In this document: positions 3,038 through 34,676 of the stretch, piece after piece
Numbering within the stretch: position 1 is the stretch's first letter
Layout: each line of letters begins with the position of its first letter
Source of the DNA: a virus
Reading direction: 5' to 3' (one strand)
Virus record (IMG/VR): IMGVR_UViG_3300015360_000016
Coordinates: 1-34,676 of that record
Length of the DNA: 34,676 nucleotides
Made by a program: the position numbers and the translations under genes
The notes under the pieces: model-generated
What the model was told of the DNA's origin: nothing
Database searches by the model: none
What the model saw: the letters and a program-made list of their open reading frames with translations, nothing else

Positions 3038-3517
3038 TCATCCCTGCCCCGCCGTTCTCTGCGCCTCTGCGCCTCTGCGGTCAACAAGGGCCCGTTGCAC
3101 CCGTTCGTCCGCAAAAAACGTCTCCAGCGTGTCCCGGTGAGCACTGCTCTCCTGCCGATGCTGCATCTTCTTCAAGAGCCACCCCAGATAGTTCAGCCCT
3201 TCGAACGTCCGCGCGATCGCCAGCAACGTTCTGCCGCGGTACTGCGCCGGCCTGCTGTTGCGGTAGAAACTCTCCGCCGCTTTCATCCACGCCGTCTTCC
3301 CCGCCGCCCCCATCAAGGCTGCCTGTCTCTCCGCCTCAGTTAATTCAATGCCCGTTACGGCGGTTAAAGGTTGCGGGTTACTGGTTGCGGGTTGAACCGC
3401 CGGCCCCTGCCGGTGCTGCTCCCTGCCCCCTGCCCCCCGTCCCGCAACCGCCCCATACCCGCCCCAGTTCCCCGCCTGCTCCGCTGATACGCGGATCCCG
3501 CTGCGTGGCTCAGCCAT
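3038..3517 (-). CDS. Hypothetical protein with repeat-derived N- and C-terminal segments
   Basis: A 159-residue protein starting at ATG 3517, overlapping the stop of the upstream 52-aa gene by 8 bases. The N-terminal 50 residues are low complexity and are encoded by two heptamer islands (3418-3445 and 3362-3396). The central part (residues 55-140: E-L-T-E-A-E-R-Q-A-A-L-M-G and later F-E-G-L-N-Y-L-G-W-L-L-K-K) looks like a compact helical domain. The last 15 residues come from an octamer island (3057-3080). The genuine domain is therefore probably only about 90 residues. Family not recognised. Confidence 0.6.
   Translation of the reverse strand: MAEPRSGIRVSAEQAGNWGGYGAVAGRGAGGREQHRQGPAVQPATSNPQPLTAVTGIELTEAERQAALMGAAGKTAWMKAAESFYRNSRPAQYRGRTLLAIARTFEGLNYLGWLLKKMQHRQESSAHRDTLETFFADERVQRALVDRRGAEAQRTAGQG
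3057..3080. repeat. Octamer repeat island (3 x 8 bp)
   Basis: CTCTGCGC, CTCTGCGC, CTCTGCGG on the + strand. Preceded by GCCGTT, as is the related island at 34517-34548. Confidence 0.85.
3362..3396. repeat. Heptamer repeat island (5 x 7 bp)
   Basis: GGTTAAA, GGTTGCG, GGTTACT, GGTTGCG, GGTTGAA: five consecutive GGTTNNN units, in frame inside the 159-aa gene. Confidence 0.85.
3418..3445. repeat. Heptamer repeat island (4 x 7 bp)
   Basis: GCTCCCT, GCCCCCT, GCCCCCC, GTCCCGC on the + strand, 21 bp from the preceding island and also in frame inside the 159-aa gene. Confidence 0.7.
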
Positions 3518-3668
3518 GCGCCACCTGCTCCGCGTTGTAGACCGATTCGCAGCGATCGCAGAATGTGGGAAGGCTCATTGCGCGGCCCTCACTGCCGAGG
3601 GTCGCTTGTGGTGGGCACGCCCTGCCGATCGTCGCGTGCTGGTGTTGCGGCGGGTTTTGTTCAAACAT
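3510..3668 (-). CDS. Small cysteine-containing protein
   Basis: A 52-residue frame from ATG 3668, preceded at short spacing by CAGGGG. It contains C-P near residue 18 and a C-D-R-C pair near residue 37, which could bind one zinc ion together with nearby histidines. Its stop overlaps the start of the next gene, consistent with coupled translation. A strong hairpin (3684-3719) lies just upstream of its ribosome site. No family recognised; the coding call is moderate because of its size. Confidence 0.45.
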   Translation of the reverse strand: MFEQNPPQHQHATIGRACPPQATLGSEGRAMSLPTFCDRCESVYNAEQVAHG

Positions 3669-8030: not shown

Positions 8031-8233
8031 GCTATATCGACACTGGCCGCCTTTTGCAGCGGTATCGGAACGCAGTGAAAACAAGCTTCGAGTGTATTGG
8101 CGAGAAGAAAGCGAGGAAAAACATTAGCGCGATCCACGACTACGCGCGAGAGCTCAACGGTCGGGGCGAGGAACTGCCCACAGACGCAAATTGTTGTCAG
8201 ACTGGCGAATTCAACGGGGATGGATCACGATAG
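8027..8233 (+). CDS. Small hypothetical protein in the immunity operon
   Basis: A 68-residue protein with a strong GGAGG ribosome site 8 nt before ATG 8027; it overlaps the repressor stop by 4 bases. The first 50 residues are charged and helical (T-G-R-L-L-Q-R-Y-R-N-A-V-K-T-S, then K-K-A-R-K-N-I-S-A-I-H-D-Y-A-R-E-L). The tail is polar with a Cys-Cys pair. Coupled to the repressor, it could be an anti-repressor, co-repressor or superinfection factor; the sequence does not indicate which. Confidence 0.65.
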   Translation: MSYIDTGRLLQRYRNAVKTSFECIGEKKARKNISAIHDYARELNGRGEELPTDANCCQTGEFNGDGSR

Positions 8234-8288
8234 CCCCTTCGCTGCAGCGCCTGCACAAGCGGGCGCTGCGTCGAACGGACTACAGCAA

Positions 8289-8324
8289 CCGGCCCAAAGC
8301 GGGCCAGAAAGGAGGATGAGAAAA
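8289..8324 (+). promoter_or_regulatory. Hairpin plus ribosome-site module, copy 2
   Basis: GGCCC (8291-8295) pairs with GGGCC (8301-8305), then AGAAAGGAGGATGAGAAAA and the GTG at 8325. It is a duplicate of 7992-8026, showing that the end of the repressor gene and its downstream ribosome site were copied. Confidence 0.7.
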
Positions 8325-8642
8325 GTGAAAACGACGTATAGCACGAAATGGGGGTCGGACACAGTCATCGTAAGTGCAGATTGGGGCGAGGCGTCGTCGC
8401 CGGTCGATGGCGTGAGTGGTGGTCGCCAGGTGGCAGATTTCCGCCACAGCGGATCGCGCGCACTGAGAGCGGCGATAGAAGAATGCGCCGAGAAGGATGG
8501 AATGGATCTCGAGGACGATGACACCATCGAAAAGATCGACGGTGCAATGGACGAGATAATGGAGGGTGAAGAAGACGAAGACGAAGACGAAGACGAGATA
8601 ATGGACGAGATAATGGATGGTGAAGAAGACGAAGACGAGTAG
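8325..8642 (+). CDS. Protein with strongly acidic Asp/Glu tail
   Basis: A 105-residue protein from GTG 8325 (GGAGG at 9 nt); an upstream in-frame start (ATG 8220 or 8316) is possible. A beta-rich N-terminal part (T-K-W-G-S-D-T-V-I-V-S-A-D-W-G-E) is followed by a helix (S-R-A-L-R-A-A-I-E-E-C-A-E-K-D-G). About 45 residues then follow that are almost entirely acidic, with two D-E-I-M-x-G-E-E-D-E-D-E repeats. A tail this acidic could mimic DNA, as in some phage anti-restriction and anti-repressor proteins, or shield basic partners such as the repressor or integrase. That role is inference only. It is the last gene of the immunity operon. Confidence 0.65.
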   Translation: MKTTYSTKWGSDTVIVSADWGEASSPVDGVSGGRQVADFRHSGSRALRAAIEECAEKDGMDLEDDDTIEKIDGAMDEIMEGEEDEDEDEDEIMDEIMDGEEDEDE

Positions 8643-8862: not shown

Positions 8863-10029
8863 ATGGCGAAGCCTAAATTCCCCAAGCCCTGGCACCCCAC
8901 TAAACACGGGTCTTACCGTGAACTACGCCCCGGCTGGTTTCAAATGACGTGGCGGCCGGACGGCAAAGCCGGCCCGCAGCGCAAGCGCACCGTTCAATGC
9001 ACCAAACTGGAGGCGGAACAATTCCTGCTCTCCCAAGCCGCCACGCGTTCGCGCGTGAAAGCCGGGCTGGCGTCCGCCATGCGCTGGGACGAACTGTTGC
9101 CGCTGTATGTCGAACGCCTGCAGGCAAAGGGGCGGGGTGCCGGCTACATTGAAAAGGTGCAGCGCCTGCTGCACGCCTGCCGCGATTGCGTGCTGGTGGA
9201 AGTCTCCGACGTCTCGCCGGCATTGCTGGAAGACTGGGTGAACGCTCTGGCCTTCGATGCGCAAGCGAAGGAAGCCGCGCGCGCCGCCAAACTGCAGCGC
9301 GACACACACCGCGGTTGGGCGAACACCGCCAACAAAAAACGCAAGATGGTGGGCGCGTTTTTTAAATGGGCCTTCCGCAAGGCCCGCCAGCTGTCTCCGT
9401 TGGACGCCGTGGATTTCATCGATGAATCCAAAAAGCCCCCGCGCGACATTACCCCAGACGAATACGCCGCCGTGTGGAACGCCTCCGAAGAATCGGTACA
9501 GGATCTGATGGATGTGTACCTAGTCACCGGCTGCCGCTTCTCAGAACTCGCCTCGATGCGCCGCGCGAGCGTTCAGCCGGACGGCCGCTGGGTGGCCGGC
9601 AATCGCAAGGGAAAAGATTTCGTCAAGCAAACATTCCCGCCTGAACTCCTCGAAATTATTTTAAAGCAGCCGCTCCACGCCGATGGTCTGGTGTGGCACA
9701 AATGGGCCCGCCCGTTCCCTGCCAGTAACAAGGGCATCACGTTCTTAACTGGCGTGAAGATTGATCCGTTCTGGTTCCGCAAGGTGTTGCATGCGCGCTG
9801 CGATCGCGCTAAGGTGGCCCGCTTCAAACCCCACGATCTGCGCCACGCGGCCGGCTCCTGGTGCGACGATGCCGGCGCCAACACCCGGCAGATTCAAAAG
9901 TTGCTGGGCCATAGCCGTGTTGAAACAACAGAACTCTATGCACACGGAACGAAAAAAGGTGACACAAAAGTGTTGCAAGACATGATTCTAAAGATGCGAA
10001 ACGAAGCACTTAAACGCCTTATATGGTAA
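8863..10029 (+). CDS. int: Tyrosine integrase
   Basis: A 388-residue site-specific recombinase from ATG 8863, chosen for its GGAGG at 8 nt. It has an N-terminal arm-binding-like part, a SAM-like core-binding domain (about residues 65-190), and a catalytic domain with all key residues: Arg in T-G-C-R-F-S-E-L, Lys in G-N-R-K-G-K-D-F, H-D-L-R-H (His and Arg), the second His in L-L-G-H-S-R, and the nucleophile in E-L-Y-A-H. It should integrate and, with a directionality factor, excise the phage DNA. Its stop lies 7 nt before a tRNA 5' half (10037), which is the likely attP core region. In a lysogen int would be directly upstream of, and co-oriented with, the reconstituted tRNA gene. Confidence 0.95.
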   Translation: MAKPKFPKPWHPTKHGSYRELRPGWFQMTWRPDGKAGPQRKRTVQCTKLEAEQFLLSQAATRSRVKAGLASAMRWDELLPLYVERLQAKGRGAGYIEKVQRLLHACRDCVLVEVSDVSPALLEDWVNALAFDAQAKEAARAAKLQRDTHRGWANTANKKRKMVGAFFKWAFRKARQLSPLDAVDFIDESKKPPRDITPDEYAAVWNASEESVQDLMDVYLVTGCRFSELASMRRASVQPDGRWVAGNRKGKDFVKQTFPPELLEIILKQPLHADGLVWHKWARPFPASNKGITFLTGVKIDPFWFRKVLHARCDRAKVARFKPHDLRHAAGSWCDDAGANTRQIQKLLGHSRVETTELYAHGTKKGDTKVLQDMILKMRNEALKRLIW

Positions 10030-10036
10030 CGCTTTA

Positions 10037-10080
10037 GGGCCTGTAGCTCAGCGGTGAGAGCAAGGGACTCATAATCTCTG
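10037..10080 (+). other. attP: attP candidate: 5' half of a CAU-anticodon tRNA
   Basis: GGGCCTG (acceptor 5' strand), TA, GCTC-AGCGGTGA-GAGC (D arm), A, then AGGGA-CTCATAA-TCTCT (anticodon arm with anticodon CAT at 10070-10072). Every pair in both arms forms, with one G-T wobble. The ACTCATAAT loop context resembles tRNA-Ile2 (CAU), which decodes AUA, more than initiator Met. Downstream no T arm or matching acceptor strand (CAGGCCC) follows, so the gene is incomplete. Directly behind int, this is the expected identity block with a host tRNA attB. Confidence 0.75.
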
Positions 10081-10189
10081 TGTGCTTCTTTCTCACAGTC
10101 ACTACGTCTATTCATCCTATGGCCTGCAAAACTAAAACCATTCAGTGACGGGTAGTTTCTGGTCTCGGTGTTTCAAAAAGGGTGCCGGT
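10081..10189. other. Intergenic region downstream of attP
   Basis: About 110 bases between the tRNA fragment and the end of the leftward late operon. It includes a short heptamer stretch (AGTTTCT, GGTCTCG at 10154-10167) related to the island at 22265-22299. No gene or terminator is clear. Confidence 0.5.
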
Positions 10190-13100
10190 TTACCCCTTCC
10201 GCAACGCTTTCAGAAGTGCCTGCACTTCCGCGTCCTCCTTGCCGGCCACGTCGGCGGTGAAGATTTCGGGCGTCCGCACCTTGCCCTGCCGCTCCAGTTC
10301 TTTCAGTCGGCGCTTGATCTCGCCTTTCGTCGCCCACTTGTCTTCTGCCTCTTCGTCCACACTCACGGCTTTTGCGCCGCTGAACAGATTGATGCCGCGC
10401 GCAAAAGCGCCCTTTCGGTCATCAGTGGCTTTGCCGAGCGTGTTCGACAGGCGGGATAGCGGCGAATTGTTCAGCGCGTACAGTGCCAGCGGGTCCATTT
10501 CAAATTTCGGCTTGCCGCTCTGGGTCGGGATCTCCACCACGCCCAGCGCGTCCCGCACCGGTCCGGGCAGGTCAGCCGCCCAGTGCGGGGCTTTGCGGTT
10601 TTCCTCGATCGGCTTGTGCAAGAAAAAATCCTGTCCGCTGCCCAGTTCCAGCGGCACTTTAAGTGCCGGGTTTAGACTGCCCAATAAGCCCGGCAGTCCT
10701 TTCCCGAACGGTGCCGCAGCGCCTTCGATGGGCGTTCCTAGATCGTAGCCCAACATCGCGTTGCCGTCCGCGTCCGTCCCCAGCGGAATACTCAGCGCGT
10801 CTTTAGTGTAACCCGGCTCGCGCTCGGGTCCGCCGGGCTGCATCCCCAGCTGAGTCAGTTGCTTCACTTTCCCGGCCTGAGTGAACGCGGCCGCGATCAT
10901 CGCCGGTACCGCCCGCCGCGTGTAGCCGTAAAACAACACCGCGCGGTTCATGTACTTCTGTTCAAACGGGGTGAGGCTTTCCTTGCTGTAATCAAACAGA
11001 TGTTTGTCCACATCGGCCGCCGCCACTTGCGGGCTGTTGCCTTCCATGCGCTTGTGGATGTAGTGCGCCAAGCGGTCCCCGTCTTCAATCATGCGCCCGT
11101 CCAGCTTGCCCGCGGCTGCCGCTCCGCCCTCCAGAAGCATGCCCGGCCCGCCGGCCAGCGTGGCGCCCACTTTGTCACCGCCCCGGATCAAAAAATTATC
11201 CTGCCAGTGACTGTTCTGTAAAAACGGGTTCCACGTTTTTTCCGCGTTGGACGGGTCCACCGTGTCTTTCAGCAGTTCCTCGAATTGTCCATTCCGTCCC
11301 GCGCCGCTCTCGGCGAATTCTTTCAGCAGCGCTTCGCGGTTCAAACTGGTGCCGTCACCCAGTGTGACGTTCAGATTCTTCCCCGAAAGCGCCTTTAATG
11401 CAGTCTCCCGGTGCGCTCCGGACAATGGCACTCCGCCCAGCCAGGACTGCAAGCGGTTACTGACCGTGTTTCGCACGTGGTAGGCCGGGAACGCCCGCGT
11501 GATGCTGCCCTTGTACGCGCGTGTGATGTTGTCAAACCATCCCACGAGCTCGTTCACTTCGTCCGGATCGGTCAAGCGCTTGCTGGTGTCCAGAATGGCC
11601 TGCGCCGTCGCCGGATCGTCGAACGCGATCGGCGGCAATCCCTGCGCCGCGCGCTGCGTGTTGATGCTCTCAAGGCCCACGCTGCCGTCTTTGTAATCCA
11701 CCAGCCCGTTGCCCAGTGAAACGCCCGTGCGGTCCGTCTCGCGTCCGAATTGATTGACGGCGCCGTCGAAAAAGTCCGCGCCGGCCATGGCCTGGATGTG
11801 GCGCTTCTCGCGCGTGAACACCTGCGCCGCCGGGTTTTCGTTGAATACCGCCCCCTTGGCCCCGAATTCCGTAAACGCCTCGTTCAGTTCAGAGACGCCC
11901 AGATGTTTATAAGCTTCCAGTCGCGGGATCTGCGACGCGTGCACGGTGCTGATCTCTTTTGCAAAGTCGAGATACTCCGCCACCAGTCCGTTCTGCTGGA
12001 TAAAGGCCCGGTCTTCGGCCTTCAGTTTCATCATCGCGCGGTTCGCTTCCACCTCCATGCCCTTGGGCACCGGCTTGGCTTTCCGCCGCGGCGCGTTCAT
12101 GCTGGCGTCCAGCTTCTGACGTCCAGACGTCTTCAACGCCTCGGGGTTGGGCTCCATGCCCGCCCGGATGCGCTTGTCTTCCAGCCGTTTGAACAGGCTG
12201 CCGCGCTGTTCGTCGCTAAGGCTCCCAAAGAACCTGCGGCCCTCGTTCGTGCCCACGTGCGTGGTGTACGCGATGCGCTCCGACTTCATCGCCGCCGAAT
12301 TCAGCCCGCGGCCCTGCTCCAGTTTCAGCATTTCGTCATACTTGCCGCGGATCGTCTCCGCGGTTTGGATCACATTTGTTGGCGCGTCCGCCCCGCCGTG
12401 CTCGATGTAATCGGTCACCGCGCGCGCAAAGTCCGGCGCGCTGCCGTCGGGTATGAGTTTCGCCGCGCCGGTCGCCGCCGCGCTTGTCTCCGCCCCCATG
12501 CGCTCGATCGTGGCCGCTATTTTCGCGCGCGCGTGCTTCACGTCGATCAAGCTGCTCAACTGCCGGTGGGTGTTCCGGTCGTTGTCTGTCACGCTCGCCG
12601 CGTCGGTGCGTTTGATGCGTAAATCCACCTCGTTGAAGCGGCGCTGCAGGTTCTCCACCGAGTCCGCCGCGGGCGCTGCCTTCGCAGTTGCCGGCGTAAC
12701 CTTCGCAGTCTCGGCCGTTATCTTCGGAGTCGGCAGAATCCCCGCCGCCGTTCCTGCGCTGGCCCCTGACCCCTGACCCCTCATTTCCTTAATCGGGTCC
12801 CAGTATTTCGGCTCGTTCGGTACCTCCGTGACCATGCTTTCCAGCGTGGGCCGTTGGGTACGCCACTGCTCGATGGATGCGTTCATGTCCGCCACCGGGT
12901 CCACCAGGGGCCCAGCTGTCAAGGGTTCCATAATGGCTGGTGGAGTGGTCAAAGATTCCTTGACCACTGGCGCCGCGACGTCCGCGCCGCGTTCCATATC
13001 CACCGGCTTCAAGCCCAGCCGCTGTTCAATGTCCGCCAGCACGTCCGTGGCCTTGTTCAGCTTCTGCATTCCCGGCAGCTGTCCGGTTTTTCCGGATAGC

Positions 13101-15505
13101 TCATCCTTCGGGAATTCAATCTTCGCCGGGTCTATCATGTCCGCCCGCTGAATCTGGCTCCCCTTGTCCTTGGGGATAAACTCCATCGGCACTTCAATTG
13201 GGATGCCGTCTTTCAGCTTGGCCCGGCCGTCCGCCGTGATCTCTTTCAGTGTGAATTCGTCACCGGCAATTTTCAGCTTATCGCCCACGCCCACCGCGCC
13301 AGACTCCGCCGATAAATACTCAATCGTTTTAAGTTCCGGTACCTGCCCCTTGTTCAGCGCCGCCTCCAAGAACTTCGGGAGCGCCTCCGCCTGCTCTTTG
13401 ATGCCCGTCTCTTTGAAGCCGATCGCTGATAAGAATTTCCCGCGCCGGTCCTTGATCTCGGTGTTAATGCCGAACTGGTCCGGGTGGCTGGGCATGTCCT
13501 GCGCGTTCACAAACGCCCGGCGTGCGTCCTCGGCCCGCTGGTTCAGCCGTGCTTTCTCCGGCTTGGTCAAGCCCGTGTAAACGCGCTCCTGTTCGAACGC
13601 GTCAAGCGCCGTGGTAAAGTCCGCTTTCACATCCTGCTTGAGTCGTTTCACGGCGTCCACTGGCACCGTCCATTCGCCGATCTGCGCCACCGTCTGCCCG
13701 TCGAACATAAACAAATGGTCAATCGTGCCGCTCTGCCGCGGGCTCAGCGCCTGCGTGGCGTCCGTCGGCCGGCGGATCGCGTGAGCGCGATTGAAGCGCA
13801 CCCGGTGGCCCGCGTTGGGCATGTCGAAATTCTCATAGACCGGCCGCGCGTTGACGTCCTGCAAGGGCGTGATGCGTGACCCCAACAGCGTCTCCGGCCG
13901 GTCCATCCCGGTGAATTCCGGCATGATCGTGTTTTGAAACGTGCTCGGCGGCCCGTCGTTCTCCGCCACCAGCCTGGCTTCTTGCTCGGTCGTGAGTTTC
14001 GGGAAGTCGGTGAAATTACCAGACACCGCCGGCGGGTTGGGGGAAACAGGCGCACCCACGTTCTGGGGGCCAGCGCCTGCCGGGTTAGGGCCCGCCGGCG
14101 GTGTCTCTGAAAACAAGGGGTTGGCCTCTTCCAGAATCTCGCCCGTTGCCGGGTCGATTAAATCGCCCGTGTTGGGATCTCGCACCGGGGGCATGCCCGC
14201 CCGCATGGCTTTTTCCTGCGCCTCCAGGTCCGCCGCGCGCGCCTGCAGTTCATCCAGCCCGGCGGGGTTGTACGTGCTGCCCTTCAATTCTTCGTTGAAC
14301 TTTCCCACGTCCTCCGCGGCCTGCTCAATGCCCGCCGCCATTTTCGTGCGCGACGTCTTAGCCAGCTCTAAGATCGGCCGCCGTACACTCTCCGGCAGCG
14401 CGGGAAATTCATGAAACAAGTTCCCCACCTGCTTGATGCCCGGCAGTTGTCCCGCGCGGCGCCAAAGGTCTTGCACAGCCTGAGCCGCCTGCGGTGCTTC
14501 CAGAATCGTTTTCTGCGGCAACTGTAGCGGCGCCGTCAGTCCCTTCACTTCCGGCAAATAATTCACGGGGTTATACTTCCCGCCCAGCCGGAACAGGGAG
14601 AGCGGGTCAAACTCCCCGCCCACCTGTAGGAACGCCTCCTGCCCCGCCTTCACACGTTCCCCGGCTTCGCCCGCCGCTTTGAACGCCTGCTCGTCCGTCA
14701 GCCCGCGCGCCGCCTGGTTCCCTAGAGTCTCCCGCGCCGCGCCGCCCAGTTCGTTCTGCTGCCCAGCCATGCGCTGTATAAGCTCATTCTGAGGCACAAC
14801 ATTTCCCGCATCATCCAGAAGATTCCCCAGCGGTCCATACGCCGGCGCCGGCTTGATGAAACGCGCTTTCGCGTCCGCCAGCGCCGGGGCGGTCACCACG
14901 TCCCCGGCTTCCTGCGCCCCTTTCAGCCACGAGTTGTATTTCGATTCGCCCGCCGTGAACTGCTGCGCCAGCCGTGCCGCCTCGTCCAGATGCCCCGCCA
15001 CCTTCCCCGTGGCCACGCCCGCTTTCGTGCTCGCCTTAAGGCCCATGAAACCCGGCAGAACATTCAACGGGTCCAGAATCAATTCAGTGGCCAGCCCCGC
15101 CGCGCCGGATCCTGAGAGTAAATTGTCTGTCTTGTCGATGCCCAGCCACGTTTCGTTCACGTCCTGGCCGCTGACCCTGTTTTTTTTCGGATCGTACAGC
15201 CCCAGCGTCTCCGAAAACGGTATCAGCCCCAGCAGCGGTTCCAGCCGCCCCGTGGCCAGCCCGCGCAAGGCATTGCCGGGCCGGTCCAGAATATCGCCCA
15301 CCGTGCTGAGAAACCCCGGTTCATCCGGCGGGGGCTCGATCGGAGCGAATGCCGGCGGGGGTGCGAACGGTTCCAGCGGTTCGTTCTGCGGAAATGAAAT
15401 ATTCATGGGGTCCGGATGGAACGTCATCGGGCCGTACTGTTCACGCCGTTTGCGCCGCGGCGTGTTATCCCATAGCGGCGTGTCATCCCATAGCGGCATG
15501 TGCAT
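10190..15505 (-). CDS. Giant internal virion / DNA-ejection protein (1771 aa)
   Basis: Last gene of the late operon and by far the largest, about 15% of the genome. ATG 15505 follows the preceding stop directly (TAAATG). The N-terminus has P-L-W-D-D-T-P-L-W-D-N-T-P then a Pro-rich stretch; the body is long, Ala/Glu-rich and helical with disordered linkers. The C-terminal third has R-A-F-P-A-Y-H-V-R-N-T-V-S-N-R and hydrophobic Ala/Gly-rich segments (A-V-P-A-M-I-A-A-A-F, G-P-G-M-L-L-E-G-G-A-A-A-A). Size, position after two Gln-rich proteins and end of the morphogenesis cluster match the gp16-like component of podoviral ejectosomes, which form a channel across the cell envelope. No lytic transglycosylase motif was found. 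A heptamer island (12761-12781) lies in one linker. Confidence 0.7.
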   Translation of the reverse strand: MHMPLWDDTPLWDNTPRRKRREQYGPMTFHPDPMNISFPQNEPLEPFAPPPAFAPIEPPPDEPGFLSTVGDILDRPGNALRGLATGRLEPLLGLIPFSETLGLYDPKKNRVSGQDVNETWLGIDKTDNLLSGSGAAGLATELILDPLNVLPGFMGLKASTKAGVATGKVAGHLDEAARLAQQFTAGESKYNSWLKGAQEAGDVVTAPALADAKARFIKPAPAYGPLGNLLDDAGNVVPQNELIQRMAGQQNELGGAARETLGNQAARGLTDEQAFKAAGEAGERVKAGQEAFLQVGGEFDPLSLFRLGGKYNPVNYLPEVKGLTAPLQLPQKTILEAPQAAQAVQDLWRRAGQLPGIKQVGNLFHEFPALPESVRRPILELAKTSRTKMAAGIEQAAEDVGKFNEELKGSTYNPAGLDELQARAADLEAQEKAMRAGMPPVRDPNTGDLIDPATGEILEEANPLFSETPPAGPNPAGAGPQNVGAPVSPNPPAVSGNFTDFPKLTTEQEARLVAENDGPPSTFQNTIMPEFTGMDRPETLLGSRITPLQDVNARPVYENFDMPNAGHRVRFNRAHAIRRPTDATQALSPRQSGTIDHLFMFDGQTVAQIGEWTVPVDAVKRLKQDVKADFTTALDAFEQERVYTGLTKPEKARLNQRAEDARRAFVNAQDMPSHPDQFGINTEIKDRRGKFLSAIGFKETGIKEQAEALPKFLEAALNKGQVPELKTIEYLSAESGAVGVGDKLKIAGDEFTLKEITADGRAKLKDGIPIEVPMEFIPKDKGSQIQRADMIDPAKIEFPKDELSGKTGQLPGMQKLNKATDVLADIEQRLGLKPVDMERGADVAAPVVKESLTTPPAIMEPLTAGPLVDPVADMNASIEQWRTQRPTLESMVTEVPNEPKYWDPIKEMRGQGSGASAGTAAGILPTPKITAETAKVTPATAKAAPAADSVENLQRRFNEVDLRIKRTDAASVTDNDRNTHRQLSSLIDVKHARAKIAATIERMGAETSAAATGAAKLIPDGSAPDFARAVTDYIEHGGADAPTNVIQTAETIRGKYDEMLKLEQGRGLNSAAMKSERIAYTTHVGTNEGRRFFGSLSDEQRGSLFKRLEDKRIRAGMEPNPEALKTSGRQKLDASMNAPRRKAKPVPKGMEVEANRAMMKLKAEDRAFIQQNGLVAEYLDFAKEISTVHASQIPRLEAYKHLGVSELNEAFTEFGAKGAVFNENPAAQVFTREKRHIQAMAGADFFDGAVNQFGRETDRTGVSLGNGLVDYKDGSVGLESINTQRAAQGLPPIAFDDPATAQAILDTSKRLTDPDEVNELVGWFDNITRAYKGSITRAFPAYHVRNTVSNRLQSWLGGVPLSGAHRETALKALSGKNLNVTLGDGTSLNREALLKEFAESGAGRNGQFEELLKDTVDPSNAEKTWNPFLQNSHWQDNFLIRGGDKVGATLAGGPGMLLEGGAAAAGKLDGRMIEDGDRLAHYIHKRMEGNSPQVAAADVDKHLFDYSKESLTPFEQKYMNRAVLFYGYTRRAVPAMIAAAFTQAGKVKQLTQLGMQPGGPEREPGYTKDALSIPLGTDADGNAMLGYDLGTPIEGAAAPFGKGLPGLLGSLNPALKVPLELGSGQDFFLHKPIEENRKAPHWAADLPGPVRDALGVVEIPTQSGKPKFEMDPLALYALNNSPLSRLSNTLGKATDDRKGAFARGINLFSGAKAVSVDEEAEDKWATKGEIKRRLKELERQGKVRTPEIFTADVAGKEDAEVQALLKALRKG
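12761..12781. repeat. Heptamer repeat island (3 x 7 bp)
   Basis: GGCCCCT, GACCCCT, GACCCCT on the + strand; encodes R-G-Q-G-S-G in a linker of the giant protein. Confidence 0.75.
12944..12968. repeat. 9-bp inverted repeat inside the giant gene
   Basis: AGTGGTCAA (12944-12952), 7-nt spacer, TTGACCACT (12960-12968). Perfect arms within coding sequence; function unknown. Confidence 0.8.
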
Positions 15506-34548: not shown

Positions 34549-34676
34549 TCCCCAGTTTTTTCGCCTCCGCCATCAACTCCGCCTCCGCCATCGTCTGAGC
34601 CGCCGGCCCCACGTTCTGCACGATCTGTTTATCCGGCGCGTTCAACCCCAGCAGCCGGGCCAGGCGGTCCGCCGCC
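34541..34676 (-). CDS. terS: Terminase small subunit, 3' end (continues the gene at 1-518)
   Basis: This is the C-terminal part of the small terminase. Bases 34554-34676 are the duplicate of 1-123, and 34541-34553 supply the unique last codons (ending L-G-I-A-stop). On the circle the gene is complete; in the linear window it is split by the ends. Confidence 0.8.
   Translation of the reverse strand, partial: AADRLARLLGLNAPDKQIVQNVGPAAQTMAEAELMAEAKKLGIA
34554..34676. repeat. 123-bp terminal direct repeat (right copy)
   Basis: Exact copy of bases 1-123; see the left copy. Confidence 0.93.

Follow-up and report, generated by a model that had tools for sequence, protein, structure and literature searches.

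Half a tRNA Gene behind int: A Probable Phage Attachment Site of the Uncommon 5' Type in a tRNA-Ile2(CAU) Gene

The Attachment Region of the Window Phage

The virus record IMGVR_UViG_3300015360_000016 of the IMG/VR database comprises 34,676 nucleotides (nt), which were analysed over their full length and are termed “the window” here. The record carries the 5' half of a transfer RNA (tRNA) gene with the anticodon CAU closely behind a tyrosine integrase gene, an arrangement pointing to a phage attachment site (attP). The integrase gene int (8863-10029, plus strand) codes for 388 amino acids, matches PF00589 (E = 1.1e-15) as well as the integrase family phrog_1 (E = 2.7e-41), and terminates with TAA at 10027-10029. 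A spacer of 7 nt (CGCTTTA, 10030-10036) separates the stop codon from nucleotide 1 of the tRNA half, which lies on the same strand at 10037-10080 and starts with GGGCCTGTAGCTCAGCGGTGAGAGCAAGGGACTCATAATCTCTG. The half contains the acceptor 5' strand, U8-A9, the D arm and the full anticodon arm up to the 3' strand of its stem (AGGGA CTCATAA TCTCT, with one G-U pair). In a stretch ended at 10082, cmscan matched RF00005 at 10037-10082 over model positions 1-45 of 71 (27.8 bits, E = 2e-4), with the 3' side cut off. ARAGORN found no complete tRNA in the window, nor was there a match with Rfam at the gathering threshold, and therefore no 3' half follows the 5' half. The attP region thus covers the tRNA from nucleotide 1 as far as the putative crossover and lacks its 3' part. 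A first-pass annotation, made from the letters of the stretch alone, had recognised a co-oriented CAU tRNA 5' half 7 nt downstream of the int stop codon, and coordinates, cmscan and ARAGORN all bear this out.

Across attP, an open reading frame (ORF) for 1771 amino acids (10190-15505, minus strand) faces int. The window begins and ends with an exact direct terminal repeat of 123 nt (1-123 and 34554-34676), and accordingly the record is circular or complete. Given this repeat and the phage DNA on both sides of the half, the latter is not a contig edge, but an unintegrated attP.

Recurrence of the Half tRNA in a Second Phage

Among the IMG/VR records listed, one besides the window contains the exact 34-mer GTAGCTCAGCGGTGAGAGCAAGGGACTCATAATC of the tRNA half. 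In this second phage (L002) the 34-mer likewise follows int immediately and in the same orientation, without a 3' half after it, and the int stop codon TAG even coincides with U8-A9-G10 of the tRNA half. The two integrases share 26% identity over 212 residues, and a comparison of the giant ORFs facing int in the two phages yielded no similarity. A pattern scan of IMG/VR for CAU 5' halves, in which about 120 places were classified, produced complete tRNAs except for the window, L002 (fetched a second time as L007) and the degenerate case L046. The recurrence of the 34-nt core behind the integrase gene of a second phage indicates that the half is not a product of chance. Single-protein, two-row (A1) and A3-alignment searches of IMG/VR with int gave only L002 and L006 as further phage relatives, L006 being a classical 3'-type case, and tblastn against deposited phages returned distant int and TerL matches and nothing else.

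An Integrated Relative in a Planctomycete Genome

The integrated state was found in a relative of the window phage. A search of 392 Planctomycetota genomes with the window integrase retrieved its strongest match in genome G160 (E = 2.6e-48), where a prophage of 33.6 kb encodes an intact integrase with 39% identity over the matched part; other alignments of the two proteins gave 37% and 34%. Besides int, this prophage shares with the window phage the portal (32% identity), TerL (31%), the capsid (26%) and the giant ORF at the corresponding prophage end (blastp 44% over 459 amino acids, E = 2e-102). The window's 1771-aa ORF matches two separate ORFs, one in each end region of the G160 prophage, and thus the protein is split or rearranged there.

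The G160 prophage occupies a different tRNA gene. Its int stop codon lies 5 nt upstream of a complete, co-oriented tRNA-Leu(UAA), the 5' half of which abuts int. A second tRNA-Leu(UAA) 5' half, which follows a tRNA-Val gene, is found on the same strand at a distance of 33,592 bp upstream. The two halves are identical from tRNA nucleotide 1 onwards apart from one mismatch in the D loop, and they differ upstream of nucleotide 1, as expected if tRNA function maintains the match. At the anticodon stem, the stranded half passes into phage sequence and the homolog of the giant window ORF. One end of the integrated prophage is therefore marked by a complete tRNA and the other by a stranded 5' fragment, a layout homologous at both ends to that of the window attP. 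These junctions identify the complete tRNA-Leu(UAA) as a fusion of a phage 5' half and a host 3' half, with the native 5' half left behind at the other end. The first-pass annotation had proposed this junction geometry for the window phage itself; it holds for the related G160 prophage and would by extension apply to the window phage.

RF00005 identified 71 tRNA places in G160. Among the class II places that were read, the hybrid is the only Leu(UAA) gene, the other Leu genes having the anticodons CAA, TAG, GAG and CAG; the places not read individually are 71-75 nt long and hence not Leu. It follows that the one UUA-reading tRNA gene found in the lysogen sits at the prophage end. At the mismatched D-loop position the relatives G060, G001 and G098 have T and the stranded G160 copy has A, a difference that would fit relaxed selection on this stranded copy without proving it. 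In the relatives of G160 the downstream gene and tRNA-Leu are located apart, so that synteny at an empty site could not be demonstrated.

A relative of the integrase in G060 was rejected as an informative case, since it is a truncated remnant without a tRNA nearby. At this locus (L217, about 1495-1995; G060:C2) the truncated relative of the window and G160 integrases is followed by a second, unrelated integrase-like ORF, the whole representing a decayed element.

Target tRNA and Probable Host

Genome G160 harbours three kinds of CAU tRNAs, namely an initiator, an elongator (with a AATCATAAT loop and a longer D loop) and an Ile2-type tRNA. With the last of these the window half agrees at 38 of 40 positions, and it fits neither the elongator nor the initiator. 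Hence the half most probably derives from tRNA-Ile2, as judged from sequence comparison, which lends support to the earlier guess of “probably Ile2”. The form CGGTGAGAGC(A/G)AGGGACTC occurs among the sampled Planctomycetota in G001, G003, G060, G098, G130 and G160, a distribution pointing to hosts that belong to the class of G160 or stand close to it, and the host of the window phage is probably a planctomycete. Hybrids assembled in silico from the window half are recognised as tRNAs by ARAGORN; joined to an Ile2 3' half of the G003 type, all acceptor and anticodon-stem pairs are standard, including two G-U pairs. The L002 half pairs with the same G003 3' strand without wobble.

Contig L004 carries at 3483-3558 a CAU tRNA which, together with the first bases of its 3' flank, is identical to that of the planctomycete L003. 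This contig is filed as a Bdellovibrionales metagenome-assembled genome, and was probably mis-binned or transferred.

Other 5'-Type Elements at the Ile2 Gene

Further planctomycete genomes contain elements of the 5' type at the Ile2 gene. On one contig of G321 (L255, 1195-1232; G321:C160) the int ORF extends across the tRNA 5' half as far as the anticodon loop, which provides its TAA stop codon, and on another contig of the same genome a different int is found approximately 160 nt upstream of a complete tRNA. Stranded halves lie about 29 kb (G140) and 26 kb (G051) from complete tRNAs, and in both of these genomes the integrases on the 5' side point away from the tRNA. Copies consisting of the half only are present in G297, G067 and G219. 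Of the complete Ile2-type loci inspected, 9 have an integrase on the 3' side and 3 have one on the 5' side. Compared with the Islander catalogue of genomic islands (159 with a displaced 5' fragment among 3919), these counts give a Fisher p of 0.011. Because the loci with a 5' integrase had been retrieved on account of a duplicated 5' half, and with flanks longer than those of the others, the figure is indicative only, and the criteria of the two counts differ. The 5' type thus appears not to be rare at the Ile2 gene of the sampled planctomycetes.

Core Site and Arm-Type Repeats

The anticodon stem-loop of the window half (AGGGA-CTCATAA-TCTCT, 10063-10079, plus strand) represents a candidate Int core site. 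Its symmetry, together with the observation that copy identity ends just 3' of the anticodon loop in the G160, G140 and G051 elements, suggests a crossover within the 7-nt loop. Direct repeats that may serve as arm-type sites surround the core in G160 (20/21 nt), G321a (22 nt with mismatches) and G140 (32 nt with mismatches), and none of 200 shuffles reached them. In L002 the core is flanked by a repeated TGTGACAGT, which is weak, since its score was attained in 11 of 200 shuffles. The same 200-shuffle test detected no significant repeats of this kind in G051.

Proposed Integration Mechanism and Alternatives

Taken together, positions 10037-10080 very probably constitute the attP core of a temperate phage whose integration target is the tRNA-Ile2(CAU) gene, probably of a planctomycete. 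Int would exchange strands in the anticodon loop of the Ile2 gene. As the half in attP is the one preceding the crossover point, integration would fuse it, in its place behind int, with the 3' half of the host gene, so that a complete hybrid tRNA gene arises at one end of the prophage. The native 5' half would be severed from its own 3' half and come to lie at the other end along with the host promoter. For this reason, the tRNA of the lysogen would have to be transcribed from prophage DNA, either by read-through from int or from a promoter inside the int 3' end. Excision would restore the native tRNA gene.

Several observations weigh against this reading. No prophage or host of the window phage itself was found in the 392 Planctomycetota genomes, and the 200-shuffle test revealed no significant arm-type repeats around the window core. 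The single D-loop mismatch cannot by itself tell which of the two G160 halves is phage-derived. Finally, a consensus scan found no convincing promoter upstream of the half, but native planctomycete tRNA genes did not score clearly better, and thus the scan is uninformative.

The first two of these observations would also fit a half tRNA that is no attachment site at all, but an accidental leftover, either of an imprecise excision event or of a tRNA gene formerly present. This explanation is nevertheless very improbable, as the same half occurs at the same place in phages with distant integrases, a related phage is integrated at exactly such a site in G160, and the half spans precisely the segment from nucleotide 1 to the anticodon stem that the symmetry of an Int core predicts. 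Hardly any weight is given to tRNA-dependent lysogeny as in mycobacteriophage Fionnbharth, where the host tRNA gene does not survive integration and a separate tRNA of the phage takes its place. Phages using Ile2-CAT sites do belong to that system (PMC10865867), yet it was rejected for the window, which has no complete tRNA gene and matches the tRNA over about 40 nt from nucleotide 1 rather than over a core of about 10 bp, and the G160 prophage does rebuild its tRNA. Equally slight is the chance that the 5' half functions, attP or not, as a stand-alone RNA during infection (a tRNA-fragment regulator or decoy): an int transcript running on would include the co-oriented half 7 nt downstream, but the isolated half folds no better than shuffles (z = -0.66), and attP function accounts for all observations.

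Transcription of the Hybrid tRNA

The hybrid tRNA of an Ile2 lysogen may be transcribed from the int promoter or from one within the 3' end of int. The first-pass annotation had suggested that read-through from int could be tied to host viability or could stabilise lysogeny. Such a dependence is at present no more than a possibility, as the scan yielded no convincing promoter and the integrases of G140 and G051 point away from the tRNA; in these genomes the phage flank must supply a promoter in some other way, and read-through from int is thus not general for 5'-type elements. A far-reaching variant, which we regard as rather unlikely, holds that expression of an essential tRNA with a single gene in the lysogen (Ile2 in the present case, Leu-UAA in G160) relies on transcription of int. 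In that case int could not be silenced, control of lysogeny would have to lie with the directionality factor instead of Int, and the prophage end bearing int and attR would be locked against decay. Since precise excision restores the native gene, any “addiction” or stabilising effect would be confined to counteracting the deletion or decay of the prophage end.

Comparison with Known Systems

Integration by means of a tRNA 5' half is already known but uncommon, and both bacterial and archaeal cases precede the window phage. In Islander, as quoted in PMC4383910 (citing Williams 2002), 159 islands are recorded with a displaced 5' fragment and 3760 with a 3' fragment. Like the elements described here, the former combine a tyrosine integrase and a tRNA target with a 5' half supplied by the element and a stranded native 5' half, a likeness drawn from the catalogue entry. 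The pTN3-like integrases of Thermococcales also use the tRNA 5' half (PMC8371274, PMC5495485). The recombinant tRNA is parted from its original promoter and reported to be expressed from the integrase promoter, and the review PMC8371274 describes such a use as seldom met in bacteria. In contrast to the window phage, these elements are archaeal and their integration disrupts the integrase gene, whereas here int remains whole and stops 7 nt (window) or 5 nt (G160) before the half.

Actinobacteriophages with tRNA-dependent lysogeny (PMC10865867) resemble the present case insofar as the viability of the lysogen would rest on a tRNA gene partly or wholly supplied by the prophage, and Ile2-CAT is among their targets. 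However, their target tRNA is not rebuilt but complemented by a separate, full phage tRNA, while here a hybrid gene would be formed. Classical 3'-half integration, as outlined for mycobacteriophages with cores of 30-45 bp in PMC10865867, shares the crossover in the anticodon loop and the restoration of the tRNA by the element; there, the opposite half is supplied and the host promoter stays with the tRNA.

The window phage and its relatives would thus add a group of bacterial phages that move an essential tRNA gene from its native promoter to a position behind prophage DNA, including an intact integrated example. They make it directly testable whether an essential host RNA depends on prophage transcription and whether prophage ends are preserved thereby.

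Additional Features

Genome G160 also contains, at G160:C2:1301200-1308400 (L206), some 30 tRNA genes within 7 kb, which cover most anticodons, are in many cases of weak or unusual structure and look like a mobile-element tRNA array. In the window, the ORF just upstream of int (8097-8642) ends in a low-complexity Glu/Asp run with GAAGACGAA repeats at its C-terminus.
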